Shown here one piece after another: positions 5,740-56,989 of a DNA stretch of 64,000 nucleotides. Where the stretch lies: assembly GCA_002812745.2 (NCBI GenBank), contig NCSJ02000242.1:1-64000 (forward strand), in the 5' to 3' direction. This stretch comes from Scytalidium lignicola (Eukaryota; Ascomycota; Leotiomycetes). A model generated the notes under the pieces. It was not told the origin of the DNA. It saw nothing but the letters and a program-made list of their open reading frames with translations, and searched no databases. The position numbers were made by a program, and so were the translations under genes. The stretch's first letter is position 1; every line of letters starts with the position of its first letter.

Positions 5740-7422
5740 ATGTCTGGAGAATGGAATCCGCTTCTAGAGAGCCTTGTAGAAGGCGCACTGGAAGTCCAGG
5801 GAATCTCCAAAACAGACCTTTGCGCCTACCTTGTCAGCGTGCAGGGCCAGAGACTGTTCTGCACTTCCAAGTTGAGAGATAACGGAAGAGCAGAGCGCAT
5901 CGCAAACGAAGATGATGGACGTATCTTTCCTGCATGGTCTCTTTTCAAGGTCTTTATTGCAGTAGCGGTTTCCTTGATGATTGAAAAGCTATCTCTCCTC
6001 CCCCCCGATGCTTGGGATCGAACATTCACAGAAGTATTCAACCACTTCAGCGAAAGCGTCATCATTATTCGCCCTCTAGACGGTGATCCGACTGTGAAAG
6101 ATCTCGTATTTCATTTTAAAGGACCCTGCAACATAAATCACCTCTTCCTTTCCCCTGAAGGAAGCCCGATTTTATCTGCGACTGCCTTCCTCGAGACGAT
6201 ACCTCAATTCACCGAAGACGCTCACCAGAAACACGATACAGGTCAGCTAGAATATTCCAACGGAAACTACATCTTGTTGGCTCTCTTTATTGAATTCGTT
6301 TCGAAGCAACCGCTTGCTGCATTCTTAAAGAAGCATATATTCGACCCCCTTGGCATGGACCGGACATACATGAGCACGGAGGAATTGAACTCGGTCCCGG
6401 CAGACCAACGAGTACAGCCAAACATAGTATCTAGCAATAGTCGTGGCGGGCCTATTCCCCTCCCCGACCAGATGCCTCACCTCGCCGATACGGTGGAGCT
6501 CGCTGTCATGGGTGCATACACCTGTCTTGCTGACCTGGGTAAATTCTTCGACAAGGTGATACAAGGACTACACGATGAACCTGACAATACTCTATTTGAT
6601 AGAAATTTTACTAAATCTCTTTTCCAAGGCAAAACCAAAATTGACAAGACAAAGGATTCTGGCTACTCTAGGTTTGGGATATTCACACCACTTGACGAGG
6701 ACTTTGCGGGAAGCCATTCTCTTAATCGCCTGTTATCAAGCGATGGTGAATTCTCGAAGTATACTCTAGGCAAAACGGTAGACAACAAACGTATTTTTGC
6801 ATATTACATGGCCGGTTGCGGCACGGGTTGGCTTCACACTGTCTATTTTATCCCGACAAAGCGCACTTTTATCATCGTCCTCACAAATACTTCGGGCCCC
6901 TGTGATGCATCTGATATTGTCTCCCGTCTTTACCTCCAGAAGATCTTTAACCTTCGACCCGCTAGGACCGATAACAGAAGTATCAAGTTTCAGCCAGACA
7001 CCGTTGAAGAGCGTACCAAACACCATATTAAGCTCGCCCATGTGGCATATCAGGAGAACTTTCATGTGTATTGGAACCTTGAGCAGAAGAATGCAATACA
7101 AGATACACGAAGTTCCGACTGTACCGATGCCATTGGTATTTTCGAAAACAAAAGGTCTAGACAATCATTGGAGGTGAAGGATCTTGATGGCGTGCTTGGG
7201 GTTATATTGAGAGGCGAGGGCAAGATATCGAAGCCAATGAGATTTGTTCGCAAAAGCAAGACTTTTCGAATATGTTCATATCCGCTTGGTACTTCTTTTT
7301 TGGCTATCGACTGCTTTGGTGACTGGGAGACCTTGGAGTTCAGCTTCGAAGAAAGGAACGGCAAAATTTTCAAGTTTACCAGGGATGGAGTTAATATGGA
7401 AGATGAATTTATTCGGAAGTAA
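5740..7422 (+). CDS. Serine beta-lactamase-like (class C/penicillin-binding fold) protein
   Basis: A single open frame of 560 residues. The class C beta-lactamase/DD-peptidase hallmarks are readable: the catalytic SxxK as SLFK at residues 67-70, the YxN motif as YSN at 172-174 in the context YSNGNYILLALFIE, and a GWLHTVYF strand around His366 in the place of the KTG/HxG motif. The core domain is about residues 20-420, followed by a C-terminal beta-rich tail of about 140 residues typical of eukaryotic members. There is no signal peptide, so it is probably cytosolic. Fungal relatives act as esterases, transacylases (LovD-like) or hydrolases, and true drug resistance is not implied. The next gene downstream is the DUF6594 gene on the opposite strand. 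It lies about 4.6 kb before the murB gene; a functional link is only a speculation. Confidence 0.8.
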   Translation: MSGEWNPLLESLVEGALEVQGISKTDLCAYLVSVQGQRLFCTSKLRDNGRAERIANEDDGRIFPAWSLFKVFIAVAVSLMIEKLSLLPPDAWDRTFTEVFNHFSESVIIIRPLDGDPTVKDLVFHFKGPCNINHLFLSPEGSPILSATAFLETIPQFTEDAHQKHDTGQLEYSNGNYILLALFIEFVSKQPLAAFLKKHIFDPLGMDRTYMSTEELNSVPADQRVQPNIVSSNSRGGPIPLPDQMPHLADTVELAVMGAYTCLADLGKFFDKVIQGLHDEPDNTLFDRNFTKSLFQGKTKIDKTKDSGYSRFGIFTPLDEDFAGSHSLNRLLSSDGEFSKYTLGKTVDNKRIFAYYMAGCGTGWLHTVYFIPTKRTFIIVLTNTSGPCDASDIVSRLYLQKIFNLRPARTDNRSIKFQPDTVEERTKHHIKLAHVAYQENFHVYWNLEQKNAIQDTRSSDCTDAIGIFENKRSRQSLEVKDLDGVLGVILRGEGKISKPMRFVRKSKTFRICSYPLGTSFLAIDCFGDWETLEFSFEERNGKIFKFTRDGVNMEDEFIRK

Positions 7423-7821: not shown

Positions 7822-8965
7822 TCAAGAACCAACGTTGCCAGAGAGGAAGACCACCAGGATTGCCGCATATCTATCGTAAACCTTAGCACGAAGAATTCTA
7901 TTTAAAGGTGACTTATGGGCGATTGGGGGTTTGCAGTGACTTACCCTGCGACTAAAGCCAGACTGCTTTTATTTGGAGTATTTAAAGAACCCACGCATAG
8001 TACAGACGCTGTAAATAGAGTGATTGCTAGAACTACGAGTTTCCATGTCTTACTTTCCAAATATGAAAGCAAAACCACAGGAAGCATCAAGAAAGTACAG
8101 AAGCTCAAGTGGAGGAAGACAGCCTCAGCACGGCGAACCTTATCCTCAGAGTAAATCGTCGTCATTGCAGCTGCTGACGGCAGTAGTTTTGGGGGCAGTC
8201 TACTTTCAGGTATTTCCTCGGCCTTAAACGTCAGTTATGGACCAAAGCCTTTCAAATTCGTATCTGATTAGGTATGAATGTGATTCAAGTGGAAGCACTT
8301 ACAAACATGTTCTGTAGGTGACTGTGACTGTCTACGAATCTGTGTCCCCACGTTTTATCGTTGGTAGCTATTGAGGCTAAATCTCTGAGATTGGGACTTC
8401 CTTGGCCAGATATGTTGAGCCATCTTAGAAGAGGTCGGATGTTCTGCTTCATTTTTTGTGTAGATGCCCATTCTCTCATCTGTCTAATTGTTCTCGACTC
8501 AGGCTTTCTATATAAGTTGAATTGAGCCTGAGCAGCTAACGCGGCATCTAGAGATGACTTATGTTAATGATTTACGCAGTAACCAAGGAAGTTTAAGTGA
8601 GGAAAAGAAAAAGAAGGCTGGGATAGTGACTGACCGTATTTAGACAATGCGCGTTGGATTTCTGGCAGCAGATTATCTGGATCTTCTGTCTCATCTTTCA
8701 ATATGTGATTATAGAGTTTCTGTTCTAAGATTACCAAGTCTTGCTGTAGGTAGAGAAGATTAAGTAGATGAAGCCTCCCAAATCGACGAAACACCCAGTA
8801 GTCCGCGTCAAGTTCTAAGTTCCTTGCGATACCCTCGAGAGTGCGGACGGAATGGGTCTCCAGAGAATTGCTCGGTGACTGATTATTGAGGTTCTCCAGA
8901 GTTCCCTCCTCCATCGCGGCCTCAACAGAGATGTTAGGAGAGGACTTTGGTGTGAACTGAGCCAT
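7822..8965 (-). CDS. DUF6594 fungal membrane protein gene, possibly frameshifted
   Basis: Exon 1 (8965-8635) has the family core: DADYWVFRRFGRLHLLNLLYLQ followed by an acidic helix and LSKYG, with a GTCAGT donor at 8634. Joining to a CAG acceptor near 8483 gives KYDE, the conserved KYDEAL-like position, but the frame must then slip near an A6 run to reach RPLLRWLNISGQ. A later exon (about 8180-7941) carries the C-terminal pair of hydrophobic helices (LHLSFCTFLMLPVVLLSYL and WKLVVLAITLFTASVLCVG). A last short exon to the stop at 7822-7824 encodes YDRYAAILVVFLSGN, the usual family ending. Two joins do not keep phase cleanly. This is either homopolymer sequencing error or a young pseudogene. Function of DUF6594 proteins is unknown. 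Confidence 0.6.
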
Positions 8966-9619
8966 TCTTTCAGCATATAATATTTAGGTACAAAGATATA
9001 TTGATTTGTTGCAATGAGATTAAGCTTGATGAATTAATTATTAAGGATGGACCGTTGGCAGTATGCACTTCTATGAAAACAATTCTCTCAGAAGTTTCAG
9101 AATGTGATTATAGTCTTCATATTCAAAATATACATCTCATGTACAATAAATACCTCTTGGTAAATTGTTCGAAGCCAACATAAGCGCCAGCTTTTATTCT
9201 TGTTTCATGAGGAGAGGTGGCTGCTGCCAAACAGTTCCGGTAGCCGCCCAGAGGTTTCTGGCGCCAATCAGAACTAGGGGAGTAGATAATTTTGGGAATT
9301 GGCCTTAGTAATCAAGTTAACATTCCATTTCTTATGCTAATTCACAATTTTCATATACATTGCATAATTAATTTTTGCTTTTCTGCCGGCCATATCCGGA
9401 CATTTTGCAAGGCAGTTTTAATTTTTGCTCTTTCAATTTGTGTGAAGCGAAGATCTGAACTGGTGTAAACAGCTTGAAGTTTTATTAAAGCAGCGTAATT
9501 TATTAGCTCATCGGCTTACAAGGGATGGCCCAGTCATTTCTTGCATTCTTACCTACGTGAGTAACAGTAAATTAATACTTACCTTTTACGCTCAAATGTC
9601 TTTTAACAAGAATATTGTA
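8966..9619. other. AT-rich spacer, nothing seen
   Basis: Upstream region of the DUF6594 gene. A 60-residue plus-strand frame at 9001-9183 has no recognisable features. The right end contains the ATATTGTA target duplication (9612-9619) of the adjoining MITE. Confidence 0.4.
9612..9619. repeat. MITE target-site duplication, left copy
   Basis: ATATTGTA, identical to 10281-10288 on the other side of the inverted-repeat element. Confidence 0.85.
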
Positions 9620-10280
9620 GGCCTTCCTTAAATCGCCGCCAGAGTTACCTAAATCGCCGCCAACTTACCGGTGTCGGACATAACCTCAGGCATAACACAA
9701 CCTTAGCCTCACATACAAATTAGTATAGCAATAAGAGATCGTGCAATGTAATCAATTATACTCTTATTATCTGACAACTTTTCAAAGTTATAATAATATT
9801 TTAATATAATCTTAGGTCTTTTGTATTATTTCTTTAGTTTCTGAAGTAAATAACACAAGTAGATTAGTGTATAACTCTTCTAGAAGAGTAAGGCTTTTAG
9901 TGAAAGTAATGCTTAAAAGGCCTTATAATTATAGGGTATTACAAGGCATTCATAGCCTGAAGGTCATTGTAATTATAAGGCATTACAGAGTATTAATAAC
10001 TTAAAAGTCATTGTAATTTCAGGGCATTTCTAATGTTTAACCTAAATCGTTAGTGTTTGTTTAATGCCTTAGTATTATTCTTATCATATTTTACTGTGTT
10101 CTTTATACTATAAGATTGATATAACAGAATATGTTATTGCGTTTTAGCATTTAATTACAGGACATGGCAGGATAGTCAGATTACTAACAAATTACTATAG
10201 GGAGTGGTGGTCTGAGCGTGTTCCGACACCGGTAGGTTGGCGGTGATTTAGGTAACTCTGGCGGCGATTTAAGGAAGGCC
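9620..10280. mobile_element. 661-bp MITE with about 59-bp terminal inverted repeats
   Basis: The left end starts GGCCTTCCTTAAATCGCCGC and the right end is its reverse complement. The inverted repeats span 9620-9678 and 10222-10280 with two mismatches, both of the C/T transition kind. Each terminal repeat itself holds a doubled TAAATCGCCGCC-like motif. An identical 8-bp direct repeat ATATTGTA flanks the element (9612-9619 and 10281-10288), so this is a real insertion. The interior is AT-rich, non-coding, and holds several copies of a TTATAATTATAGGGTATTACA-like phrase. An 8-bp target duplication is typical of hAT-superfamily transposons, but the terminal sequence alone does not prove the family. 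It needs transposase supplied from elsewhere. Confidence 0.85.
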
Positions 10281-10288
10281 ATATTGTA
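10281..10288. repeat. MITE target-site duplication, right copy
   Basis: ATATTGTA, identical to 9612-9619, directly abutting the right terminal inverted repeat. Confidence 0.85.
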
Positions 10289-10497
10289 ACGATCCTACTG
10301 GGTTCTATCGTTATATAGACTGGTATACCACAGGTATACAAGGTAGAGGGCAGGCACAGTACTAATCAATCGTAGAAGTGTTACTATGATAATCTTATGG
10401 ATAAGAATATTAATTGAGTTGAGCACGATGCTCCTATCTACTTGCTAACTATCAATGCTTATATAGTTAATGAAATATCGTTGGACCCTGCTTGATC

Positions 10498-11013
10498 TAA
10501 AGGAATTAAGACTATCTTTGTTATAGACAACATTAAAGATCGACTCAAAGAAGCAGAGCAAATAGGCGCAACTCTGTTGATGTTTAACCGGAATAACATT
10601 GGTGAGCGAGTTATGGCAGTAACGTCTGAAAGAGGAGCTAATATAGTGATTGAAGTAGTAAGAAATAAAGCAGCATTCTCTTCTGCCTTCTAATTATTAA
10701 GACCTTGTAAAGTCTTATCTTCTATCGGGTTTCATCAAAGCGAGTTGCCATTCACAGCTCTAGAGTGTTACCAGAAGAATTTGACGTTAGTTATTTCCTT
10801 GATCATAAAGAATTTAACTTATTCTGACCTTATAATGTTAACTTCGTCCGTGTTCCCGTGCAGACTGTCTTTGAGGATACATTAGAGTGCCTGAGAGCAA
10901 ATGAGCAAAACTTGAAGAGTTATGTCACTTATGAGCTGAATCTGGAGGATGTAGCATGAGGTTATAGCATCTTTGAACAGCATCAGGCAAGAAAAATCAT
11001 CCTACGAATTTAG
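10498..11013 (+). pseudogene. Decayed zinc-type alcohol dehydrogenase, C-terminal half
   Basis: The plus strand reads KGIKTIFVIDNIKDRLKEAE then EQIGATLLMFNRN, the NAD-binding Rossmann half of a medium-chain zinc-dependent alcohol/formaldehyde dehydrogenase. It continues through a RGANIVIEVV stretch, LLRP-KVLSSIGFH, a TALECYQKNLTL stretch and a C-terminal VFEDTLECLRANE piece. It carries in-frame stops (for example before LLRP and in the VA-stop-GYSIFEQ stretch) and a disordered middle. The catalytic zinc-binding N-terminal half is missing or unrecognisable to the left, next to the MITE. It is a dead fragment lying about 1 kb upstream of murB; nothing shows that the two were ever linked. Confidence 0.7.
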
Positions 11014-12070
11014 CTTAGAAAAGTTTCACCGCTGTGAAATGGTCTTGCTGACGAATGTTTATGCGGCTTTCTGACCACCCCAACTGCCAGAAATGATAAT
11101 TATGCATCTACATAATTACGGCATAAGAGTTAGCATAGATGGATTATACACTTAAGAATAAAAGAGACTATTTCTTATGCTAAATATCGTATGGTCTCAT
11201 TAAAAGGGTTTTGCTATAGTCTAGACTTCTTGCAGGAATTTGCGATTGAGTGCAGCTAAATAGCGTCTAATCAATCCATGAGATAATTAAATAGACCAGA
11301 GAGAGTGTTGGGGAGCTGGCCTTGTTTGTTCATTGACTCCGCGGAGTTTTGAGCTGAATGTAATATTAGCAATCAACAAGGTTTTTCCTTTTATTTTATT
11401 GAGCCTTGCCTTTTGATTAATTGGTTACCGTTTAGCTTTACTTCACGACCTTACGGAAAGCTCTGATACTTATTGCGTATCATTACCGTACGTCGATAAC
11501 TCTCCCACAGTAACAGATAATGTATTTTAACATTTAATTTGTGTTTAGTCCTTATAGAACACCAATGAATGACTACATCTACTTATCCCGACTACGAGGA
11601 AACGAATCGAAAAAGATCACATACGTGTAATCGATTGGCCGACGATTCACCCGTTTCAGACATCGAATTTCGAAACCTCTGTACCCCTTTTCTCATTCTG
11701 TCTGGTTACACACATGCAGTTATATGACCGCATTAGCTGAGACTGAATCCGTACTTTCTTTTTCCTAGGAGCATATTTGTTGTCGAAGTGTTATTGATTG
11801 AATATCCCCTGCAGTAGCAGTGTCTTGCCTGCCAGTTCATAACAATGGCAACTCGAAACGATCTACGCGAGCTGGGCCGAACAAGCAGATCTGAAACATC
11901 AAGCTCGCCATCACAAATGTAGACAAAGGCGTATCCTTGCAACCAAGTAATCGGTCTTCACCGTAGATAATAGGGCGGCACTTACCGATATAATAGTCAT
12001 CTAGTTTGTGAAGAGAAAGTAGATCTTTTAATTCGAGTGATGTGACACGTGTTTATGCACATCGATCGTT
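11014..12070. other. Spacer upstream of murB
   Basis: About 1 kb with no recognisable gene. A 69-residue minus-strand frame at 11733-11942 is featureless. The last 100 bases before the murB ATG contain no Shine-Dalgarno-like AGGAGG, which fits expression from a fungal promoter. Confidence 0.4.
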
Positions 12071-13123
12071 ATGTTGTCGTCACAAATGCCTATCTTGCCA
12101 TGTTCTCGACGATTGGACGAGCTCAACACTCTGGGATTACGAAGTTTTGCTCCAGCTTATATTAATATCAACTCTTTAGACTTGCTAGGCGACCTATCGA
12201 TAATCGCCTCAAACTATAGCTGTGTGTGGGTTATTGGTAGTGGTAGTAACATCATACTGCCAGAATACCTACAGGGTCTCGTCATCCATCCCACAATGCG
12301 AGGAATTGTGGTCGAAAGTGATATCAATGGCGAGGTTATTGTCAAGGCTGCTGCTGGTGAAGAGTGGCATCAATTTGTTGTTTGGACGGTTCAGCACGGA
12401 CTTGGGGGCCTTGAGAACCTCGCGCTCATTCCGGGTACCGTTGGCGCCTCACCAGTCCAGAACATAGGTGCCTACGGTGCAGAAGCCAGTGATTGCCTCT
12501 ACGAAGTTACGGCCTGGGATCTGACACGCAAGTGCTTGACTCGATTCTCTGCCGCTGATTGTATGCTTGGATATCGCACTAGCCGCTTCAAGAATAATAG
12601 CCAACGGCAGTTCATCATTGTCGCAGTTGCGTATAAGTTGAAAAGAGAAGGTTGGAGGCCGAACCTGAGTTATCCGGATCTCAAGAACAATGTCCAACTG
12701 AAGCAGGGTCGCGTGGAATCGTTAACACCCAAAGATGTATTCCAAACTGTCTGTCGTATTAGATGCCAGAAGTTCTCAGGTGTCTCTAATAGCGCTGGAA
12801 GCTTCTTTAAAAACCCGGTCATTTCAGACGGCCAATTCCGTCAACTCCAAGCCCGTCATATTGGAATTGTCTCGTATAGTCCGCCGAACAAGCAAAGAAA
12901 GCTAGCCGCGGGCTGGTTGATTGAGCAGTGTGGCTTGAAAGGCTATAGTCTTGGGCGAGTTGGTGTCCATAAAACACATGCACTTATTCTGACAAATAAT
13001 GGAGGGGCGAGTTGTGAAGACATCTTACAGCTTGCATCTATGGTTCGCTCCCATGTTTACCGCCGTTACGAAATATTGCTAGAGATTGAGCCTGTATATT
13101 TTAATGAACATATACCTCCCTAA
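12071..13123 (+). CDS. murB: UDP-N-acetylenolpyruvoylglucosamine reductase, type I MurB
   Basis: An intronless 350-residue frame with the complete architecture of bacterial type I MurB (E. coli protein about 342). MurB reduces enolpyruvyl-UDP-GlcNAc to UDP-MurNAc with NADPH and FAD. Visible motifs are the FAD-binding GSGSNIILPE (about 56-65) and IPGTVGASPVQNIGAYGAE (about 120-138), the substrate-site GYRTSRF with Tyr168 and Arg169, the proton-donor serine at Ser244 in NSAGSFFKNP, KLAAGWLIEQCGLKG, VHKTHALIL, and the catalytic glutamate Glu340 in LEIEPVYF. All residues known to be needed in the family are present. Met6 (12086) is an alternative start. There is no Shine-Dalgarno site, and the coding region is less AT-rich than its flanks. 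Its presence among fungal genes indicates horizontal transfer from bacteria; expression is untested. Confidence 0.95.
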   Translation: MLSSQMPILPCSRRLDELNTLGLRSFAPAYININSLDLLGDLSIIASNYSCVWVIGSGSNIILPEYLQGLVIHPTMRGIVVESDINGEVIVKAAAGEEWHQFVVWTVQHGLGGLENLALIPGTVGASPVQNIGAYGAEASDCLYEVTAWDLTRKCLTRFSAADCMLGYRTSRFKNNSQRQFIIVAVAYKLKREGWRPNLSYPDLKNNVQLKQGRVESLTPKDVFQTVCRIRCQKFSGVSNSAGSFFKNPVISDGQFRQLQARHIGIVSYSPPNKQRKLAAGWLIEQCGLKGYSLGRVGVHKTHALILTNNGGASCEDILQLASMVRSHVYRRYEILLEIEPVYFNEHIPP

Positions 13124-14320
13124 CATTAAGCACAAAGGTATAATAAGATTATTAATAAATTATCTTAAAAAATCTACAGCGTCCAATAAGAAAATGGTGT
13201 ATTATATGTCCAGAATTGTAATTTTTGAGGTTGGTGGTTAAGTGAGTTAAAAATTCGGCTTTATAACTGTAGGATTAGTGGGCTAAAATTGAATATATTC
13301 TCACTCATGTACCAAGCTCGATATTAGTAACTTAAAATAATGTTTAGAGTTACTGAGGCTAGAAGGCTTGCGCTGAGTCGGACCACGATTGGATAAATTA
13401 AGCAATACAACAATAATGGTATTCAGTATTCAAGAGTATGAAGTTCGAATTTATAGTGTGAATGCCAATAGTTAATAATGACAACATAGCTTTCTAGAAT
13501 AACTGGCTGGCTGACATAACCTTTGTAAGTAACTCTTTCTGGCAACATTAATTGTAGTATCATATTATATGTTCTGGCCTATTGGCAATGGGCCGGCCCG
13601 TCCCTAAATATACTGATTAACATAATAATTATTATATCAAATCAAGTTCAAAAATTTATAATGTGTAGGTAATATTTTTAAAAGTTTACAATTACAAGGC
13701 AAGTATGGTTATATATGTATGGAGCTCTGGGAGATCGGTTCCAATTGCCGGTATTAACCCTGTACAGCTGAATACTCACTCCTTGTACAGCTGGAAACCC
13801 CTGTAGAGCTGAATCTCCAACAAAAGCCTTATCTACGCCTTGGCTGCTCTGCGACTCATTTTTTAGATCAAAGAATTATTCAGTCTTCAAGGTAAACATA
13901 AAAATGTTTTGGGATTGAAGATACAATTTAGGATGAACATCAAAAATCACTTTGCTTAAGCTTACAGTGCATATGACTATGATATAACTATTATAAAAGA
14001 TTACGAGTACAGTATTACAATCGTTTGACAATTATTACAGTTTTATTATTAATCTGACATGTTGGTCTATGTGAAAAGTGAGCGTCAGATTGGTCAACCG
14101 TGTTATCAGTTGGAAGGTCAAAGCGAAATTAACGGATGTAATTCCAACAAGATAATTTNAAAAAAAAATTAAAGAAACCTCGAATTTTGTTGTTATCCAG
14201 ATTTAAATATGAGTAGCTAACTAACCAAATTCTATGTCAATAATAAATTACAACTTTTACTCTACTCGCCGTACAAGAGACTGCCAGATCTATTCAAATT
14301 TCTCTATTCACTGGTCCCTC
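13124..14320. other. AT-rich spacer between murB and murA
   Basis: A 1.2-kb AT-rich spacer. It is far too long for an operon and lacks any gene. It contains a short cluster of three TGTASAGCTG-type motifs (13761-13812) and a palindrome GGGCCGGCCC near 13590. A single ambiguous base at about 14158 sits directly before an A run, so the exact length here is uncertain. The open frame continues 87 bases upstream of the murA start chosen here (an ATG at 14234), giving a possible 29-residue N-terminal extension that is Arg-containing but not a clear mitochondrial presequence. Confidence 0.5.
13761..13812. repeat. Three spaced copies of a TGTACAGCTG-like motif
   Basis: TGTACAGCTG starts at 13761 and at 13784, and TGTAGAGCTG starts at 13802. 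The first and third copies are followed by AAT, the second by GAA. The core AGCTG with flanking TGTA makes each unit nearly palindromic (CAGCTG centre in two copies). They lie about 0.5 kb before the murA coding start and could be protein-binding sites or the remnant of a small repeat. No known fungal regulator is claimed. Confidence 0.35.
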
Positions 14321-15583
14321 ATGAGTTTAAAAGTAGAAGGCAATAATGTACTTAGAGGGCCTGTGTACGTATCGGGCTGCAAAAACTCGTGCCTTCCAAT
14401 CCTAGCTGCAACAACATTGAGTGCAGGAAAATACGCCATCTCTAACGTGCCAGCGATCTTAGATGTTTCTGCGATGTGCTCCATTTTGCAGTATATTGGA
14501 GCGGATATTGATTTCCTCTCGGATCGACTCGTTATTGAGACGACGAGTGTTAAAGTTAAGGACATCCCAAGAGATCTAGGTAGCACTTTGAGAGGTTCCG
14601 TTCTTCTCCTTGGTCCACTACTGGCTCGGTTTGGATATGCAAAGATTCCGTTGCCAGGAGGATGTCAGCTAGGAGCTCGTCCTATCGATCAGCATATTAA
14701 GGCCCTAAGTGCTCTTGGTGCCGATTTTTCGTTGGACGGTGAATTCCTTGTTGCTAAAGCATCAAAGGGATTACATTCTGGGAGGGTTATCTTTGATGTC
14801 CCTACTGTAACAGGAACTGCAAATGTTCTTATGGCGGCTGCAGGAATTCCAGGAACAACTATGTTATATGGTGCAGCCCGGGAGCCAGAGATTGCAGATC
14901 TTGCGATTGCTCTAGTAAGCATGGGGGTTATTGTAGAAGGCGCTGGGACTAGTCATATAAAGGTCTGTGGGACATTGCACATGCATTCTTTCTCACATCG
15001 GCTGATGCCAGATCGAATCGAATGTGGGACATTTTTGGTGGCAGGCAGCTTAGTCGGAGATCCTTTAATAATCGTTGGAGGTATACCTTCTCATCAAGAA
15101 GCGCTTATCCAAAAGCTCCTGGAGCTTGGGACAAACATACTGATCGATGATGATCGCATGATAGTATATCGTACAGCACGTCCGTCACCAATATCAATTG
15201 AAACTGGACCGTATCCTGGTATTCCCACGGATATGCAAGCACCAATCATGACACTGCTCTCCACGATACCTGGCACAAGCTCTGTCATCGAGAATGTTTA
15301 TGAAGAACGATTTCGGCATGTTCATGAATTGACACGCATGGGGGCTCAGATACATCTCAATGGTAATACAGCCACGATCACCGGGGTCACAAAGCTGTTT
15401 GGGGCTACAGTGAATGCAACCGATTTGAGAGCGGGTGCAGCTTTAGTGTTGGCAGGACTTGTATCTGAAGGCGAAACTACTGTGCGAGAAGCGTATAATA
15501 TAGATCGTGGTTATGAAAACATTGAGGGGAAGCTTAGAGGCGTTGGTGCTCATATCCATCGGAAGGCGAACGAAAATTTATAG
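14321..15583 (+). CDS. murA: UDP-N-acetylglucosamine 1-carboxyvinyltransferase (MurA)
   Basis: Intronless, 420 residues from the ATG at 14321 (E. coli MurA is 419). An in-frame ATG at 14234 would add 29 residues; 14321 is preferred because MSLKVEGNNVLRGPVYVSG aligns with the normal bacterial N-terminus. MurA transfers enolpyruvate from PEP to UDP-GlcNAc, the first committed step of peptidoglycan synthesis. Motifs: SGCKNSCLP with the PEP-site lysine Lys21, STLRGS (Arg loop), LPGGCQLGARP with the catalytic cysteine exactly at residue 115, AAREPEI, PDRIECGTFLVA, the GIPTDMQA aspartate at 304, NVYEERFRHV, ATDLRAGAALVLAG, and IDRGYENIEGKL. The Cys115 form is the fosfomycin-sensitive type. Both EPSP-synthase-fold domains are complete. 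It is clearly bacterial in origin inside a fungal chromosome, and no inactivating change is seen. Confidence 0.95.
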   Translation: MSLKVEGNNVLRGPVYVSGCKNSCLPILAATTLSAGKYAISNVPAILDVSAMCSILQYIGADIDFLSDRLVIETTSVKVKDIPRDLGSTLRGSVLLLGPLLARFGYAKIPLPGGCQLGARPIDQHIKALSALGADFSLDGEFLVAKASKGLHSGRVIFDVPTVTGTANVLMAAAGIPGTTMLYGAAREPEIADLAIALVSMGVIVEGAGTSHIKVCGTLHMHSFSHRLMPDRIECGTFLVAGSLVGDPLIIVGGIPSHQEALIQKLLELGTNILIDDDRMIVYRTARPSPISIETGPYPGIPTDMQAPIMTLLSTIPGTSSVIENVYEERFRHVHELTRMGAQIHLNGNTATITGVTKLFGATVNATDLRAGAALVLAGLVSEGETTVREAYNIDRGYENIEGKLRGVGAHIHRKANENL

Positions 15584-16180
15584 ATTATTTGCATATTTGT
15601 AAAAAGTATCTCTTTCTTATACGGACACTTGTTCCTTTTATGTCCAACAATTCCACATTATAAACACCTCGGTAGCTGTCGTTGTGGTGCTTATAAGTTC
15701 TTGTTGAAGCTTGAAGATTTGAGTACAATATTTAATCAAACTTTATGAATAGAACTTGATTTTTGTTAGTTGATTTTTATTTTTCTTTAGTGTTTGACAA
15801 ATAACGGAGGCAAAAGAGGACCCATATCTTCAGTTAAATTATCATGATTGAACTAGCCAAATCCTCTACGATGACGCCAGATAGCCTTCGCTCCGCGAGA
15901 ACGAGTCATCTCACCCGAAGATAGCGTTGGTTTTTTTTTAGTATGCTCATATTTGAATGAATTAGTCCAATCAGGTCTGTGGGGTACCTATCTCGAGCTG
16001 GTTTCAGTTTCGCTTGAATTTCCACTCTGTGGTTTTTGAATTTCCAATATTGATTACGTAGCTGGCCACCAACACCCCTTAGAACTAAATGATGCTTGGC
16101 TACTCAACCTGGATCGGCCAGTACTTGCTGCTTTTTTGATGACAACTTTTTATTTTACTGTGAGAGGAAGACAGCTAGCA
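15584..16180. other. Convergent spacer between murA and the MurC-type gene
   Basis: About 600 bases shared by the 3' ends of the two facing genes. No gene is seen. It is AT-rich at the left and right with a more GC-balanced middle (15890-16080) that reads as no known protein. Confidence 0.4.
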
Positions 16181-17434
16181 TTATACCGCAAGCTGTTGAC
16201 GAATCCAAGCATCAATAGATCCTGCACCCATAATAAGGACGAGCTTATCATGTGCTCGTGCCGATTCAATGGCCTGCCACAGGTCATTGTTCAAATCAGC
16301 AATATGAATTGCTGAGTGGTTCGTTATATTTACGGTTAGTTCGCCTGGCAACAGGATTGGAAGCGCCGGGTCTTCACGAGAAAGATGAGTAGGAAGCCAA
16401 TACACCTCTTCTGCGCGCTCAAAGCAATCAGTGTAGTCACCCTTGACTTGGTACTGGCGAATGTTCTGGTGCGGCTGGTATACGACCACTATAGAGTTGA
16501 ATAGTTCGTGAGTGAGCTGAAGTGTCGCAGCAATCTCCTTCGGATGATGGGCGTAATCGCTGTAAAGATTGGCGGCAAGACGTTCAAATCGGCGACTAGT
16601 TCCTGGGAAAGCGTCTATTGCCAGGCGTATCTGCTCAGTACTACCTAGTGTCAAACACTCAATTCCCTTTGCAACAAGAGTAGCATTTCGCCGATTGTGT
16701 GCGCCTGGAATAGAGAATGACATTCCTTCATTTGGTTGAAGCACCCACGAATGAGAAGTTGGGGGAGCTATCGATTTGTCGTCCTCGCTCCACATGATGA
16801 CTTGGCCTGACTGTTCGGCGAACGTGCGGAAAGCAGCCAGATAATCTGCTTTGGTAGGGTATGTATCGGCATGATCGTAGTCAATCGATATAAGAAGGGA
16901 GAGATGTGGAGAAAAATGAAGGAAGTTGCGGTCGAACTCGTCACATTCGTAGATGAAGAACGTGCTTTCCGGATGATACTTTCCGCTTGGTCCAAAACTA
17001 AGGGTTGTCCCAACGGAGTAACTTATGGGAACACAGAGGGTTTGCAGTGCCCATATAGCCATGCCAGTGGATGTGGTTTTGCCATGTGTCCCCGCAATTG
17101 CGATAAGTTTTAAGTTCTTCTCAGCGAGAATAAAAGCAAGTAATTCGTCACGCTTTGCTGTCTTTATTCCAAGTTCCCTTGCTTTAGCAAGTTCGGGATG
17201 ATCGTTTGGCAGAGCGGACGTATGGACAAACCACCCGAGAGGCGCTTCTAAGTTGCAGGTCTCCAGAAATGACCCGTCTTGGTTGTGTGAGATCTTCACG
17301 CCGCGCTCTTCTAGAAATTCAGTAAGCAGGCTTGCTTGCTGATCCGATCCTTGGACCCCGTAACCAAGGTCAAGAGAGATTTCAGCCAAAGGGCCAATGC
17401 CCACACCACCAATTCCAGAGAAGAAAATATTCAT
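16181..17434 (-). CDS. murC: MurC-type Mur ligase (UDP-N-acetylmuramate--L-alanine ligase)
   Basis: Intronless, 417 residues, shorter than usual MurC (about 450-490). Three Mur-ligase domains are readable. The N-terminal Rossmann UDP-binding domain begins FSGIGGVGIGPLAE (4-18). The ATPase domain has P-loop AGTHGKTTST (114-123, Lys119), the acidic IYECDEFDRNFLHF (161-174) and GAHNRRNATLV (244-254). The C-terminal domain has FPGTSRRFERL (276-286), SDYAHHPKEIAATL (292-305), YQPH (319-322) and MGAGSID (402-408). The GIGGxG and HHPxE patterns fit MurC rather than MurD/E/F; Mpl, which has a GICGT start, is less likely. The expected reaction joins L-Ala to UDP-MurNAc, the product of MurA and MurB. 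The upstream spacer lacks a Shine-Dalgarno site. The donor looks different from a typical proteobacterium, but that is an impression only. Confidence 0.9.
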   Translation of the reverse strand: MNIFFSGIGGVGIGPLAEISLDLGYGVQGSDQQASLLTEFLEERGVKISHNQDGSFLETCNLEAPLGWFVHTSALPNDHPELAKARELGIKTAKRDELLAFILAEKNLKLIAIAGTHGKTTSTGMAIWALQTLCVPISYSVGTTLSFGPSGKYHPESTFFIYECDEFDRNFLHFSPHLSLLISIDYDHADTYPTKADYLAAFRTFAEQSGQVIMWSEDDKSIAPPTSHSWVLQPNEGMSFSIPGAHNRRNATLVAKGIECLTLGSTEQIRLAIDAFPGTSRRFERLAANLYSDYAHHPKEIAATLQLTHELFNSIVVVYQPHQNIRQYQVKGDYTDCFERAEEVYWLPTHLSREDPALPILLPGELTVNITNHSAIHIADLNNDLWQAIESARAHDKLVLIMGAGSIDAWIRQQLAV

Positions 17435-18573
17435 ATTACGAGTATATCACTTGTGTAGTGGCCATTCGTAGCTGTAATAAGGACAGTGGAAACGAACAAC
17501 AGGCATGATTAAATAGACTATCTATTAATTACTACTTCACCGCTATTCCTGGCATGATGTTGCTTTTTCTGGAGCTGCGCAATCTTGCTCGCAATTTAGA
17601 GAATGAGGCTCTGTAAAGCCCTATCTAGGCCAACCTACACGAGGATATGATCACCGCAACTTTCCTCCACTAAGCCAGTTATATTGACCCCTACCTTCTG
17701 ATTAGTCGGTTGCTCAGCTACACTCCATAATCATACAGCTTGATCACCTACCATATCGCTACTGTACGTAGCCAATCGTACATACCATATTATTCTCCCA
17801 CAATATATTATTATAAATAACCTTTAAATTCATTATTATACTTAAGNTTTATTATATTCTTTTATTAAGGTTTTTATAAGTTATATGATCAATATTGAAA
17901 AAATACTTGTTTAAGTTGTTTATAAGTAATAAAACACTTTTAACTTAACTATTTCAGATTTAAATAACTTTGTTCTAAAAATAATATGTTTATAAAGTAT
18001 TTGTAAAACTTGTATTCAATTTATATATTAATATTTATAATGGTTATAGAATTGTGAATATGTAAAAGTTATAGCACTTATCTTATGACATTGGTGAAAT
18101 CATTGTGCATTACAGGAAATTTCTCGTGTAAAGTCTCCTATGATAAGTTGTGCTTATCCTTCAATGTTTCTGGTTAGTTTGACAGAACGATTGTCTGTGT
18201 CCGCGAGGAAGATATTCAAAGGGCTGATGACGGCGGCGGAAACACAAACGGAGTGCCTTGCGTTGCTGGTTAACGGACGACAATACGCCGTTAGAAATTA
18301 CTAAAATATACATTGGTTAATAAATCTGATTAATGATATCATTAAGTCTGATTGGTAAAATTAGAATTCTTGAAGATGATAGAAGATAGTCTTGCCTAAG
18401 ACGAAATGAGCTTGCAATTATCGTACTTCCAAGTAACTGATCCTCTATATCTTCATCAGGAATGATATCTGAACACCAAATTTTAAAATAAATTAAACAG
18501 TAGATATCCTAGGGTCAGTAATACCAAACTTAACATTGCCAATTCAATCTACGATACTCTATCTTCGAGCAAA
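17435..18573. other. Divergent spacer between the murC-type gene and the LEU1 copy
   Basis: About 1.1 kb serving as the upstream region for both neighbours. The middle (17780-18060) is very AT-rich and has a single ambiguous base at about 17847. A more GC-balanced patch lies at 18170-18300. No gene or recognisable transcription-factor site is claimed. Confidence 0.4.
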
Positions 18574-21043
18574 ATGCCGTCTCTTGTCAAGAAATCTCAA
18601 ACTCTATACGATAAGGTCTTCGAATCTCATATTGTGGACGAGTGAGATGATGGAACAGTTTTATTATACATTGGTACTATATCTCATCACTCATTTTTCA
18701 ACATTAAAACTGAGTGACATCTAGACAGGCATCTGGTATATGAGGTGTCCTCACCGGTATATTTCCACCTTCATTCATTACAAGGATTTCTCTAATCTGA
18801 TGATTAGCAAGCTTTCGAAGGTCTTTGTAATGCAGGACGCAAGGTTCGAAGACCAGATTGTACCCTTGTTACCATCGATTATGTCTGTCTCCGTACCTTA
18901 CATATACATACATATGATTTATGAAAAGCTCATGTTAACCTATTTATTACAGAACGTTCCTACGACTTCACGTAAAAACTTCCAAAACGTAGGCTAATTC
19001 ATCGAAGAAGCCAACTCGCGCATGCAGTGCTTGACACTTGAAGACAATGTCAAAGATTTTGGGATCATGTACTTTGGGCTTGGCGACAAACGTCAAGGAA
19101 TTGTCCATATCATCGGACCCGAACAAGGATTTACCCTTCCAGGGACAACTTTAGTATGCGGTGATAGTCATACATCTACTCATGGTGCTTTTGGTGCTTT
19201 AGCTTTTGGTATCGGGGCAAGTGAGGTGGAACACGTGTTGGTCACACAGACTTTGATTACAAGGCGCAGCCAGAATATGAAGATACAGGTGGACGGTATC
19301 TTCTTGCCGGGTGTGACTAGTAAAGACATCATCCTCCATATTATTGGCATCATTGGTATCGCAGGAGGTAAAGGTGCTGTTATTGAATTTTGTGGTTCTA
19401 TTATTAGAAATCTAAGTATGGAGGCAAGAATGTCAATCTGCAATATGTCAATTGAAGCTGGGGCTAGAGCTGGCATGATAGCTCCAGATCAGAAAACTTT
19501 CGATTACTTGAAAGGAAGGCCATTAGCACCAAAGATTGACAGTCCAGAGTGGAACAAATCCATTAGTTACTGGAAAAGCCTGAAGTTGGACGAAGATGCG
19601 AAGTATGACAGGGAAATTTACATTGATACTAAGGATATCGTTCCTATTGTGTCGTGGGGAACAACTGCTCAGGATGTCGTCCTAATCACTGGTATTGTCC
19701 TTAACCCAGATGATTTTTCTACGTCAGCAAAGAGGGAGAGTGGATGGCGAGCGCTACATTACATGGATTTAGAACTAGGAACGTGGATAGAAGACATTGA
19801 GCTTGATAAAATCTTTATAGGATTATGCACAAACTCCAGGATTGAAGATCTTCGAGTAGCTGCGAATATTGTCCAAGGGAAAAAAGTTGCGGTGAACGTG
19901 AAAAGAGCAATAGTCGTCCCTGGCTCAGGTCTGATAAAGAGACAAGCTGAGAAGGAGGGACTAGATCAAATTTTTAAGGATGCAGGCTTTGAGTGGAGAG
20001 AACCAGGATGCTCAATGTGTTTATGCATGAGCCTGGATATTTTGTCACCACGAGAACGATGTGCAAGTACATCAAATCGGAACTTTGAGGGTTGTCAAGG
20101 TGTTGGTGGGAGAACGCATTTGATGTCTCCAATCATGGCTGCTGCTGCTGCGATTGTTGGCAAACTTACAGATGTACGAAAGCTCTTAGATGGAAACATA
20201 ACACCCTTTGAGGCTATAATGGAATCGGATCTTGATAAGGGCAATACTATCGACGATTCTCTCAATACACCTAAAGACAGCAACCTGAATGTCAATAATA
20301 CTCCTTCCGAGATATCTGCAGGACTTCCAAAGTTTACAAAAGTGAGAGGTGTGGCAGCTCCAATGGATCAATCCAACATAGACACGGACGCTATCATCCC
20401 CAAGCAATTCCTGAAAACTATCAAACGCACAGGACTTGGATCGGCACTTTTTCATACGCTGAGATTCAACGTCGATGGATCTGAAATTCCCGAATTCGTT
20501 CTGAACAAAGAGCCATACCGCTATGCGAAAATTCTAGTAATTACAGGACTTAACTTCGGGTGTGGGAGTTCGCGTGAACACGCATCCTGGGCTATTCTCG
20601 ACTTTGGCATCACCTGCATTATTGCGCCTTCATACGCAGACATCTTCTTCAACAACACGTTTAAGAATGGCATGCTACTTGTCATAATTACAGATCCAGA
20701 AAAATTAGCTGCGATCGCTGATGAAGCTAGAGCAGGGAAGGAAATCGAGGTCGATCTTGTCAATCAATGCGTGAATGACGCTTCTGGTAATCAGCTTGCC
20801 ACATTCGAGGTGGAAGATTTCAGGAAGCATTGCTTACTCAACGGTCTGGATGATATTGGATTGACGATGCAGATTGAGGATAAAATCACGAGATTTGAGG
20901 AGAGGAGGACAATCGAGTCTCCGTGGCTAGATAGGAACGGGTATTTAAGGAAAGGTGTAGAGGGAAGAGCTGTGAAATTGTCGGCGGTGCCTATTCCCGA
21001 TACTATAGGGGGAATCGACGGTAGCAAACCATTGGAGTGGTAG
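18574..21043 (+). pseudogene. LEU1: LEU1 (3-isopropylmalate dehydratase) copy with two in-frame stops
   Basis: The gene structure is typical of fungal LEU1: start MPSLVKKSQTLYDKVFESH, introns 18674-18724, 18757-18807 and 18883-18952, then a long last exon. The fused aconitase-like large (LeuC) and small (LeuD) subunits are both present, with the small-domain swivel loop [11 protein letters not shown] intact. Inactivating changes are TGA at 18643-18645 (within VDE-DDGT), TAA at 18995-18997 (within NVG-FIEE), and His-to-Tyr in the TIDHNVPT active-site motif. Further changes are Ser-to-Leu in IGSCTNSR (19823), Gly-to-Cys after GCSMCL (20024) and Arg-to-Cys in FEGRQG (20093). Iron-sulfur cysteines remain. 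Most changes fit C-to-T or G-to-A, as expected for a RIP-mutated duplicate. The functional gene is probably elsewhere. The 673-residue frame from 19022 is still open. Confidence 0.85.
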
Positions 21044-21454: not shown

Positions 21455-23442
21455 CTACGTATATAACCTACCCTTCTTCACCACATTGACCGACGTGCTC
21501 TCTATTGGAGCAACAGCGATTTGTCCAAATTCGCCTTCAGCGTTGATATCTCCAAGTCGCAGCTTGGCTCTTCTTAGCCTAACCGCTCTCTCATTCCACG
21601 ACCAGGTCGAATTACCAGTAAGCGTCTGGGTCTTGTTGTCCAACATGGCAAGCGACATCGTCCCCAGCATGTCCGGCACCAGTGTTATCAGCCGCAAGAT
21701 GCCAGCGGCAAAAGCAATAAGGAATAGCGTGAAAGATGATACAATCAACACCCCAAGCCAAGCTCGATTACAGTGAATGATGTCTTGCTCTACAGACGTG
21801 GTGGCCAGGATCTGCATGGTCGTTTCTTCGAGAGATGCTGCCAGCGACGCGTTGAAGCTGCCCACGACCTGGGTCGGACGAATGCCTAGCACGAGCATCG
21901 CGTTCAGCATCTGAGCCAGTCGTTGCTCGAATGTGGTCTTGCCGACGGTATAAGCGGCAAGGGAGTCCGGACCTCCGATAGTGTTGACTGGATCGAGGAG
22001 ATACACAACTTGGGGGTTGTTGGTGCCTGCAGCTTCAGCCGAAGGGAACGTTTTCGAGAAGAGCTGTAGAAAGCCAATACCATCGAGGTGCCCGCCCCCA
22101 AAGTCGAACACGGTCCAATTGCGGTCTTGTGGCGGCTGAAGTGATCTTCGCACCGAAGACGGGGAGCAGGTGTTGCTGGTGCACAACATGTTCACGTCGA
22201 CGTAGGTGGTATAGAGTTCGCATTCGGCGTGCGTGTAGTCATTACCATCCGTCTCGTCGTTAGACTCCCAGATTAACTTTCGCGCATCACGGCTACTACT
22301 GTTGCTGATCTGCACGATGCCACAGGGCAGAGACATCGCGATTTGAAACGTGTTGCCGCTCGCGGTGACAGAGAACCATGTGCAGTCTGTCTTGCCGCCA
22401 GGACTTGGTATAGCTGGGCTGGAAAAGTTAGTGAAGCTGGATCGCTGCTCCAGCACGCCACAAGTCAAGTTAAGATACGAGCCTGAGAATTCAAACGTGG
22501 TGTTTCCTGCACTCGGTCGCGTCGTAACGGGGACGCCCACGAGAGAGGAGTATTCTACATTGATAGGGTCCGTGATGTTTACCCAATCCGTATTCTCACC
22601 ATCAGCCAAACGCTCAATGGACGGAAGACGGAGATTTCCCCACAGGTCTTGGTTTCGGCTCTGAAGCAGGCTCCCCGACATCAACGACGCTATGAAGGGG
22701 GGTATGATGATGGTCATACCCTCCGCCAAGCCATCGGCATTGCCATATTCGTATTCTGAGAATGTATTCAACGCCGTCAGCGTTGTATTACTCTTCAGAT
22801 AGCTAGGTACCACCGAGACCACCCGCAGTGATGCTTGGCTGCCTAACGGTGAGAGACACCAGAGAATGATAAGCAAGATGGCAGTGATGTTAAAAGCTAA
22901 CATCCGAGCTTGTGTGAACAGGACTCCTGAGATACTATTGCTTCCAAGCAATTGCTCAACCAAACCTAAAGTCGCGCCTTGCTGCATTTTCCAGGTCGCG
23001 ATTGTCTTCATGGCGCCACCCACAATTGCCGCAAAGATGATCGGGAACACGGTAGGGCCCTGATATGCAGCGTCACTCAGTATACACCAAGAGGAATGAG
23101 GGCCGGTGGAAACAGGCCCAAATGACATACGTATTTAGCAGCCGAAACCACCGCAGCTGCCTGTGACCCTGCGTGGGGAGGCGTACCATCGTTCTTGTTG
23201 ACCAGAAAGCCGAAGACGGCGAAGAGCAGCGCGATGGCTGCAATAACAACATCCAAACATGCTCTACCCAACTTTGATCCCCAAGAGGAATCTAGACGTT
23301 GCGGAGTTACGGTTGACGATTTATCCTGGCTGCTAACTTCGTGAATACTAATCGACTGGCCAAGGTCGTCTTGGGATGGATGCTTGTTGATGTTGGTCGG
23401 GATGGCCTCGTAGCGACGCGATGGGCGTGGTTGCACCATCAT
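21455..23442 (-). CDS. Large fungal multi-pass membrane protein of unknown function (2 exons)
   Basis: Exon 1 (23442-23131) and exon 2 (23059-21455) are joined across a 71-base intron with GTATGT...CAG ends in phase 0, giving 638 residues. The N-terminus is polar. Transmembrane segments are visible near the end of exon 1 (CLDVVIAAIALLFAVFGFLV), at the start of exon 2 (FPIIFAAIVGGAMKTIATW), at FNITAILLIILWCLSPLGSQASLR, and near the C-terminus (WLGVLIVSSFTLFLIAFAAGIL). Between the third and last lies a large loop rich in NxS/T sites (NTTF, NLT, NFS, NWT) and cysteines, so it is probably extracellular or lumenal. The GPTVFPIIFAA and LSPLGSQASLR motifs recur in a broad family of filamentous-fungal hypothetical proteins. 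No enzymatic function is known to me. The frame is intact. Confidence 0.8.
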
Positions 23443-40900: not shown

Positions 40901-41932
40901 CCTGGTGGCGGATGTCCACTGGTTGTGTCGGTAGTTGTATTCTTTCCGTAATCTGGATAGCTCTATTGTCCACCACCTCTTGACGTATGGAAAAGGCTTA
41001 GGAGGGGAAATCATTTCTTGCAGAGTTTCTTGAACTAAATTCCCAAGCTCTTGTGCATGCTAGTCTAGATGGATTGTGGTTTTGATTGATGGAGCTTGGT
41101 TAAGCTTAGCCGCTAGTGCTCCCCGAATTCGTTCCCAGTCTGCCATCTGATATGATCTATGCTGGGTCCTAGGTGTTCTGATGGGTTGTTGGATATTGAG
41201 ACAAGTTGCTATTGCTTTGTGGTCCGATCCATGATCCGTGTCGTGTAGTTGGCATGAGAGAACCTGATTAACGAGAGAGCTTGATATGAAGATCAAATCA
41301 ATTGTCGATCTCTGGCCTGTTCCTTCGTTCTTGTATGTAATTGTACCGACAGGAAGGATGCTTTGGAGATAATTCTGTGCCATGAAGCTCAAGATAGGCT
41401 CTGCTTCTCCCTGTCTAAACTGGCTGAAGTTCAGTCCTCCCCATAATCTGTTGTGTTTGTTGAAATCGCCGGCCAAGATTAGGCGGAAGTTTTCTCCTTG
41501 TTGAGTAAGAGTGTCTACAAGACATTGAACTAGATTCAGGCGGTCCTCTAACATCCGCTTACATTCAGCATCTGAATTGCTGTATAGAACGTATATTGAT
41601 ATTATCACCAGAATGTGTTCCTCATGTTTAACTGTTAGTGCTGTTATATCTGAACTGTTGATTTTAAGCTGTCGGACTCCTTTTATCCTCTTGTTGACAT
41701 AGATCATGCTTCTAAAGTTATATGGTTGCTGGTATGCCAGCACGAACTCTGTGGGTAAGATCACACTCTAATAGTGGTGTTGTGGCACAACAGGTTGGTT
41801 ATGCCCCTTCGGAGTAAAGCGATATGGTTCCATGAGTAAGATAATGTTGATATCATTTGTACCGTCGTCGTTTAGTAGGCTCAACTGGGCAGCTTGCCGT
41901 TTGCCTGCATTCCACTGTAGTATTCAAAATGG
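37937..41932 (-). pseudogene. LINE ORF2 (endonuclease, reverse transcriptase, RNase H), four stops
   Basis: One frame runs across the whole span. The AP-like endonuclease (about 41930-41100) starts ILQWNAGKRQAAQL and includes ILAGDFNKHNRLWGG and the DHGSDHKAI motif. The reverse transcriptase (41014 to about 39700) includes KAPGPDGIPFRAW, YRPISLLQTIGKGLEKV, GLPQGSSLSPI and the catalytic box as FVDDYTAW (the family usually has YADD/FVDD). RNase H (about 39000-38400) has the YMDGSARKG, DCQSVM and RWVPAHEGVHGNE motifs. A C-terminal zinc-like CQCGVEEETVRHFVFQC follows. In-frame stops are at 41926-41924 (TGA), 41770-41768, 41062-41060 and 38878-38876 (all TAG). All are consistent with transition mutations, so the copy is dead but easily read. 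Confidence 0.87.
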
Positions 41933-56400: not shown

Positions 56401-56989
56401 ACCTTGTTAAGCTCTTGGTTTTTATTCTATCCTAACTAAAAGTTGTTAAACTTGATATAATTATTATTGTATTATTATTTTAACTATTACTTTTGGATAT
56501 TACTTTAAAGCTTTCATCCTCTTCTTAGATTTGCTAAATGCCTTTTGAAGGCTTAATAACTTCTTTTAAAATTTCTATTATTTCTCTCTTTATATTAAGG
56601 CTTTAGTATACTAATCATGTAAAAAGGGGAAAAGGATAATAATCTGAGTCTTAGCTATTCCTTAACTATTAACTCTTGTTTATAAAAAGGGGGGTTTCCT
56701 CTTCTCTTTGACAGGAATCAAAGATTAATCTTATAATTTTAAAAGAGTACCAAGTTTTAAAGTGAATTTATACTTAACTAACTACTATCTTACTGTTAGT
56801 CTTCTATTATATTTTAGCTTCCTAGTCTTTCTTCACTCTATGTACAGATACCCTTGACATATTAATCTTTCTCTCTTAATAAAGGGCATATAGACTGTTA
56901 AGAATCAAGATAGTTAAGACTTGTCAAACTCAAGCTTCATAACAAGAAGAAGCAAAAGGGTTGTAATTCCCCTCTACTGGCTTAACAAT

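Follow-up and report, generated by a model that had tools for sequence, protein, structure and literature searches.

What use could a fungus have for bacterial genes of peptidoglycan precursor synthesis? The question is raised by three adjoining genes in a contig of Scytalidium lignicola (NCSJ02000242.1), of which a stretch of 64,000 nucleotides, referred to here as the window, was analyzed. To our knowledge, MurA to MurC are absent from eukaryotes except for plastid-related cases and insects that bear symbionts, and muramic acid in soil is read as bacterial only. In soil analysis, this compound is measured to trace microbial residues (PMC10774409). An earlier note on this DNA knew of no described fungal mur trio, and the literature searches, which covered a minority of the subscription journals, agreed with it: no title or abstract opening among the matches listed dealt with mur genes in fungi, and none was found on horizontal transfer of UDP-N-acetylenolpyruvoylglucosamine reductase in Ascomycota.

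Open reading frame and profile searches showed that the region between positions 12071 and 17434 carries full-length murB, murA and MurC-type genes, all intact, as the earlier note had proposed. The murB gene (UDP-N-acetylenolpyruvoylglucosamine reductase; 12071..13123, plus strand) is a single exon encoding 350 amino acids. It is followed on the same strand by murA (UDP-GlcNAc 1-carboxyvinyltransferase; 14234..15583), a single exon encoding 449 amino acids, or 420 from a second ATG at 14321, near which the homology to bacterial MurA begins. The third gene, a murC-type ligase of the Saccharimonadota kind (16181..17434, minus strand), encodes 417 amino acids, also in a single exon. Each gene occurs once in the 46.85 Mb assembly. 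MurB scored above the NCBIfam equivalog cut-offs (NF000755, 358.9 bits vs. 277; TIGR00179, 215.9 vs. 144.5) and so did MurA (TIGR01072, 471.6 vs. 392.7). The best model for the ligase was murC TIGR01082, although its 249.9 bits lie under the cut-off of 335.1; the murC matches of Saccharibacteria likewise fall under it, with none of the five genomes examined passing. Pfam assignments agreed for all three genes, including the FAD domain PF01565 and MurB_C PF02873 in MurB, and the ligase has the three Mur-ligase domains and the P-loop. The closest solved structures were MurB, MurA and MurC chains, respectively. MurA includes the motifs CKN, TLRG, GGCQLGARPID, PTDMQA and DLRA, and MurB includes YRTS, GSFFKNP and LEIEP; we take the Cys, Lys, Asp and Arg of the former and the Ser and Glu of the latter to be catalytic. 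A search of the window with six proteins for additional or decayed mur fragments returned the three genes and otherwise two pieces at chance level (E values of 0.82 and 0.15).

The remaining genes of the pathway were searched for in the whole assembly by six-frame translation, an approach that is blind to introns and could miss genes split by them. The only matches to PF08245, the domain used to look for MurD, MurE and MurF, were the MurC of the window and one FolC-type protein (the control was positive in 12 of 14). Eight matches to the D-Ala-D-Ala ligase domain PF07478 were found and none was convincing: seven are in carboxylase, carbamoyl-phosphate synthase or PurK-type proteins, and the eighth, in contig C83, is an ATP-grasp protein far under the Ddl cut-offs. 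The best MurG match reached 23.6 bits inside a UDPGT protein, the transpeptidase domain PF00905 had no match in the assembly, and a second MraY-type enzyme was not found, the lone PF00953 match being taken as the fungus's own enzyme. Judging from these searches, a complete peptidoglycan pathway is not present, and the route would stop after the MurC step. In such a route MurA would join PEP to UDP-GlcNAc, a chitin precursor already present in the fungus, MurB would use NADPH to reduce the resulting compound to UDP-MurNAc, and the ligase would add L-alanine, or a similar amino acid, at the expense of ATP. The route would yield UDP-MurNAc or UDP-MurNAc-L-Ala. We consider it probable that an ascomycete-like fungus acquired three bacterial genes, brought them within 5.4 kb and retained them as working enzymes giving one of these two compounds. 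Most likely, the cluster was assembled inside the fungus and would make UDP-MurNAc-L-alanine for some acceptor. Expression, enzyme activity, the amino acid used by the ligase and the fate of the product are what we infer from the sequence. Since the three early-step genes are intact though the wall-finishing genes were not found, the fungus may produce a sugar compound thought to be specific to bacteria.

The nearest relatives share 58-74% identity with the proteins encoded in the window. Among the matches listed, the closest relative of MurB is a MurB-like protein of the fungus Exophiala aquamarina CBS 119918 (61% identity), encoded in a 1.85 Mb contig. Both belong to a common clade (support of 100/98 to 100/100) that adjoins Burkholderiales-type MurB. 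The MurC protein is nested inside the Saccharimonadota (pair support 98/96), where many matches have 65-71% identity, and the MurA clade was supported at 100/100; the relatives of MurA and MurC include metagenome sequences. According to these trees, MurB and MurC are from different donors, and the three genes come from at least two donors, probably three. A single-operon transfer was considered and rejected because the genes are on both strands and the donors differ. Scans of viral contigs with the relatives P0122 and P0003 detected no related locus. No near-identical bacterial donor was present among the matches listed for the three proteins, which argues against a recent arrival.

The explanation that survives best next to a pathway is that each enzyme was co-opted singly, for enolpyruvyl transfer, FAD-dependent reduction or amino-acid ligation, and that their proximity is a by-product of a repeat-rich region that tolerates insertions. 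The different donors, the repeats and a decayed LEU1 copy nearby are in keeping with this idea. So is the distribution in Exophiala aquamarina, which, among the minority of listed rows that bear a name, appears for MurB only and has no row among the 120 matches listed for each of MurA and MurC; MurB may therefore work alone there, and the pathway reading is weakened. However, it is improbable that genes for three successive reactions of a single pathway ended up within 5.4 kb by chance, and the window proteins retain the motifs for their original reactions, as do, with a few conservative changes and using loosened motif patterns, the three MurB and five MurA relatives tested. Independent repurposing seems unlikely to us.

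Another possibility is that the fungus performs the initial part of peptidoglycan synthesis on behalf of an associated bacterium no longer able to do so, an arrangement known from mealybugs. The nuclear mur genes of mealybugs are reported to come from several bacterial donors, a mosaic like the one proposed here. Nuclear genes for peptidoglycan synthesis have been described in insects (PMC13320244, PMC7154730). Against such a partnership, a 16S search of the assembly reported nothing bacterial, the single match reported being mitochondrial; this test scored 5 of 470 candidates, its control was positive in 9 of 14 genomes, and a partner could be missing from the sequenced material. We regard host complementation as improbable.

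The best-supported conclusion is that the mur block sits in fungal nuclear DNA. On one side, a 661-bp element with 59-nt inverted ends that are 97% complementary (9620..10280) ends 1.8 kb upstream of murB; on the other, a second dispersed repeat (17690..18165) starts 0.26 kb past the 5′ end of murC. The repeat searches gave 58 matches in other contigs, 46 of them to the element (9611-10283), as copies or pieces in 25 contigs, and 12 to the second repeat, in 11 contigs and with 74-90% identity. Carriage of the genes within the inverted-repeat element was rejected: the element stops short of murB, and each mur gene is present in a single copy. Of the fungal flanking genes named in the earlier note, the DUF6594 pieces (8285..8983, minus strand; one above and one below the Pfam cut-off) are fungal in kind, while the second LEU1 copy (isopropylmalate isomerase; 18571..21043, plus strand) looks broken, being open from 18998 and interrupted upstream of there by in-frame TGA and TAA codons within coding-like sequence, and the supposed membrane protein (21455-23128) had no Pfam match. 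An intact LEU1 copy with 69% identity is located in contig C21. Other fungal-type neighbors are GST pieces (668-1376) and, by Pfam, an ORF with a HET domain and a reverse transcriptase. The layout on two strands with AT-rich spacers was as previously described; the spacers measure 1110 bp (32.6% GC) and 597 bp (37.5% GC), and the genes have 46-48% GC. The absence of Shine-Dalgarno sites also held for the five words tried in the 20 nt upstream of four candidate starts. Between 11500 and 18000, sigma-70-like sites (18 vs. 16.1 ± 3.9 expected by chance) and terminator-like sites (2 vs. 4.5 ± 2.2) were at chance level.

Bacterial sequence fused to a fungal contig by contamination or misassembly is very hard to reconcile with these surroundings. 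The window includes 14 single Ns, one of them (14159) between murB and murA, but the stretches from murB to the first repeat and from murA through murC to the start of the second are free of Ns, so that host repeats are reached on both sides without crossing one. An artifact would also need the joining of three genes from different bacteria, and neither the low-GC spacers, which are devoid of bacterial signals, nor the fungal origin of the closest MurB relative among the matches listed is in its favor. The view that the genes were acquired and maintained gained support from the flanking repeats, the fungal MurB relative, the conserved motifs, the limited 16S test, and a codon use that resembles the host's in a weak test. 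Scarcely credible is the view that the genes are functionless relics of real transfers, recent or decaying like the adjoining LEU1 copy, considering that open frames and motifs are kept at 58-74% identity to the closest relatives without a near-identical donor among the matches listed, and that a simulation of neutral drift left the frame open in only 2 (murB), 8 (murA) and 21 (murC) of 400 runs; open frames at such divergence are unlikely in the absence of selection.

If the preferred reading of a short pathway retained in the fungus is true, building these three steps from genes of different bacteria would break the rule that MurA to MurC are absent from eukaryotes, and Saccharibacteria would join the sources of fungal genes. 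Regarding the fate of the product, our first choice, held tentatively and at less than even chances, is that this nucleotide sugar serves as donor in the synthesis of a fungal glycan or a small molecule; feeding a bacterial partner comes second and is rather doubtful. A more specific version, N-acetylmuramic acid outside peptidoglycan, can be offered only as a possibility: UDP-MurNAc(-Ala) would donate lactyl- or alanyl-lactyl-bearing residues to a fungal glycan, e.g., chitin, or to a secreted molecule, through a cluster built in the fungus from unrelated bacteria including a Saccharibacterium.

Known systems share parts of this arrangement. In the mealybug Planococcus citri, enzymes encoded by the eukaryotic genome contribute to early peptidoglycan precursor synthesis within a three-partner pathway, according to a review (PMC7154730). 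The likeness resides in eukaryotic nuclear genes for the early precursor steps; in the mealybug, however, a bacterial partner completes the wall, while in the fungus none was seen and MurD to MurF were not found in the assembly. Among ants, nuclear transfers of murA (Pheidole pallidula), murQ (Camponotini) and ddl2 (Formicoxenini) have been described, each lineage having received a single gene, with Wolbachia, Spiroplasma or Sodalis as the source (PMC13320244). In ants, too, the nucleus has gained peptidoglycan genes from bacteria, but these are single genes and not three consecutive, adjoining steps. Exophiala aquamarina CBS 119918 shares the MurB clade without MurA or MurC rows among the matches listed. 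In the Saccharimonadota, MurC of this kind was the best murC match in all five genomes examined, and no mur gene was identified among the nine neighbors of murC typed in two loci, four of which matched no family; in contrast, the fungal copy adjoins murA and murB. The NikO-type enolpyruvyl transferase of nucleoside antibiotics is an enzyme with the MurA fold that works outside peptidoglycan. Its chain 4fqd, in the list of MurA structure matches, scored 118.6 bits against the fungal MurA, compared with 367.1 bits for the best MurA chain.

Three open frames of the window, murB (12071-13123, + strand), murA (14234-15583, +) and the gene for the MurC-type ligase (16181-17434, -), were assigned concordantly by Pfam and NCBIfam. 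MurB and MurA exceeded the curated NCBIfam equivalog cut-offs; murC was the top model for the ligase, but with 249.9 bits it stayed under the cut-off of 335.1. The best-matching solved chains were a MurB, a MurA and a MurC, one for each protein, and all three carry the catalytic motifs, for whose residues we assume the roles they have in MurB, MurA and MurC. Together these results bear out the trio proposed in the earlier note, which is real and surprising.

A recent re-inspection of Pezizomycotina accepted few between-kingdom transfers and cautioned against contamination, which makes the test of the flanks important. The contig has 64,661 bases, and each mur gene has one matching place in the assembly (46.85 Mb, 664 contigs). 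When window 9000-19000 was compared with its own assembly at the DNA level (39 of 141 candidates scored), 58 matches were obtained. Forty-six fell at 9611-10283, where a 661 bp inverted-repeat element (9620-10280, 59-nt inverted ends) recurs, as copies or fragments, on 25 other contigs, and 12 fell at a second repeat, 17690-18165, spread over 11 other contigs; among the scored candidates the stretch between them had no assembly match. The mur block is therefore flanked on either side by repeats of its own genome. The best copy of the element has 96% identity, and three 44-nt direct repeats lie inside it. There are 14 single Ns in the window, 12 of them immediately preceding an A or T run. Two are close to the block, at 14159 (murB-murA spacer) and at 17847, within the second repeat, where copies on other contigs run in line through the position. 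The stretches from the first repeat to murB and from murA through murC to the start of the second repeat are thus both N-free, and the sole N interrupting the links of the block is the one in the spacer. Fungal-type neighbours in the window include DUF6594, GST, HET and reverse transcriptase genes. The mur block sits in fungal DNA.

Other features of the window were recorded. A 560-aa frame of beta-lactamase family PF00144, a family frequent among fungi, lies 4.6 kb ahead of murB (5740-7422, +). A reverse transcriptase and an endonuclease, with RNase H matched weakly, mark 37937-41764 as a LINE-type element. RIP-like dinucleotide ratios were found in eight of the nine 1-kb stretches of 54001-63000 and in no 1-kb stretch of the rest of the window, the mur block included.

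A bacterial 16S search of the assembly, a limited test (5 of 470 candidates scored; control positive in 9 of 14 genomes), gave a single match. Its surroundings have 21-33% GC, ten tRNA genes and, read by eye, ATP6 and COX3 frames, which identify it as mitochondrial. Mitochondrial genes (25-34 kb) and aconitase-like matches (about 129-130 kb) occur together on contig C648 (142,778 bases), which is perhaps joined. Codon use, a weak test, correlated at 0.42-0.50 between the mur genes and 23 host ORFs; host ORFs compared with one another ranged from -0.12 to 0.90 (median 0.49), and donor-clade murC genes (4 of the 8 near loci) gave -0.08 to 0.28.

Retention was assessed by neutral-drift runs (400 per gene, indels left out) in which the window lineage takes half of the divergence. 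The frame was still open in 2 runs for murB, with the named fungus Exophiala as reference, in 8 for murA and in 21 for murC, the last two assuming that their references, metagenome proteins P0122 and P0242, are fungal. The LEU1 neighbour reported earlier is present (18571-21043), but this second copy is decaying, with in-frame TGA and TAA in the upstream coding-like stretch. The LEU1 copy on contig C21 (69% identity) is stop-free in its matched part; in that of a third copy, on C112, there is one stop.

Trees built from best matches gave these bacterial-type proteins a mixed bacterial origin. In the MurC tree (60 of the best 120 matches and 9 of 80 loci), the window ligase pairs with P0242 (74% identity; support 98/96). 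The nearest 8 loci share 49-61% identity with it and are by title Saccharibacteria or Patescibacteria in seven cases and only 'bacterium' in one; the remaining loci reach at most 33%. A source name accompanied 6 of the best 120 matches: Saccharimonadales (three), Chromulinivoraceae, Verrucomicrobiae and a compost metagenome. In all five Saccharibacteria genomes examined this ligase gene was the top murC match, passing the cut-off in none, which suggests that it is probably the MurC of that phylum. Five relatives (P0256, P0258, P0265, P0279 and P0336; about 550 aa) have an extra NUDIX domain (PF00293). The P0242 N-terminus and translated window 17435-17446, ahead of the ligase start, both read YTR, then Met, a small hint that one transfer may be common to both.

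Among the best 120 MurB matches, ten bear an organism name: Exophiala aquamarina, one Pseudomonadota and eight that we place in Burkholderiales. The MurB of E. aquamarina CBS 119918, which is 61% identical and encoded on a 1.85 Mb contig, groups with that of the window at 100/100, and two metagenome proteins join at 100/98 (60 of the best 120 matches). In the MurA tree (62 of the best 120), which raised a long-branch warning, five metagenome proteins (56-59% identity) group with window MurA at 100/100 on a long branch. More distant named matches include Myxococcota, Legionella and one maple record, the last regarded as contamination. The protein phylogenies indicate at least two donors, and probably three. 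E. aquamarina is not named among the best 120 MurA or MurC matches; most of these are nameless, so this is no proof of absence, but in that fungus MurB may stand alone and work without MurA and MurC.

Intron-blind searches of the assembly (controls positive in 10-14 of 14 genomes) looked for genes of the remaining steps. PF08245 matched window MurC and one FolC-type protein, and nothing else; the second FolC-type enzyme expected in a fungus was not found, so that a split gene could escape such searches. Seven of eight PF07478 places lie in carboxylases, carbamoyl-phosphate synthases or a PurK-type protein. The eighth, a 375-aa ATP-grasp protein on contig C83 (locus L009, 985-2112, -) with a partial D-Ala ligase match of 37 bits, is far under the curated Ddl cut-offs. 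The MurG candidate was a UDPGT protein under the cut-off (23.6 bits), PF00905 had zero matches, and the single PF00953 match was taken for the fungus's own enzyme. Peptidoglycan is unlikely to be made by this fungus.

UDP-GlcNAc, PEP, NADPH, ATP and alanine are ordinary metabolites of fungi, so the enzymes of the mur block could produce UDP-MurNAc-L-Ala from them. Beyond these first three steps we can only infer. The main alternative is that the fungus feeds a bacterial partner; our first choice is that UDP-MurNAc(-Ala) would act as a donor for some glycan or small molecule of the fungus.

That the earlier note knew of no described fungal trio of this kind agrees with our search of open-access literature, where mur genes in fungi were not found as a subject. 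Acquisition of D-amino-acid enzymes by transfer is described for fungi, and peptidoglycan genes residing in the nucleus are described for insects.
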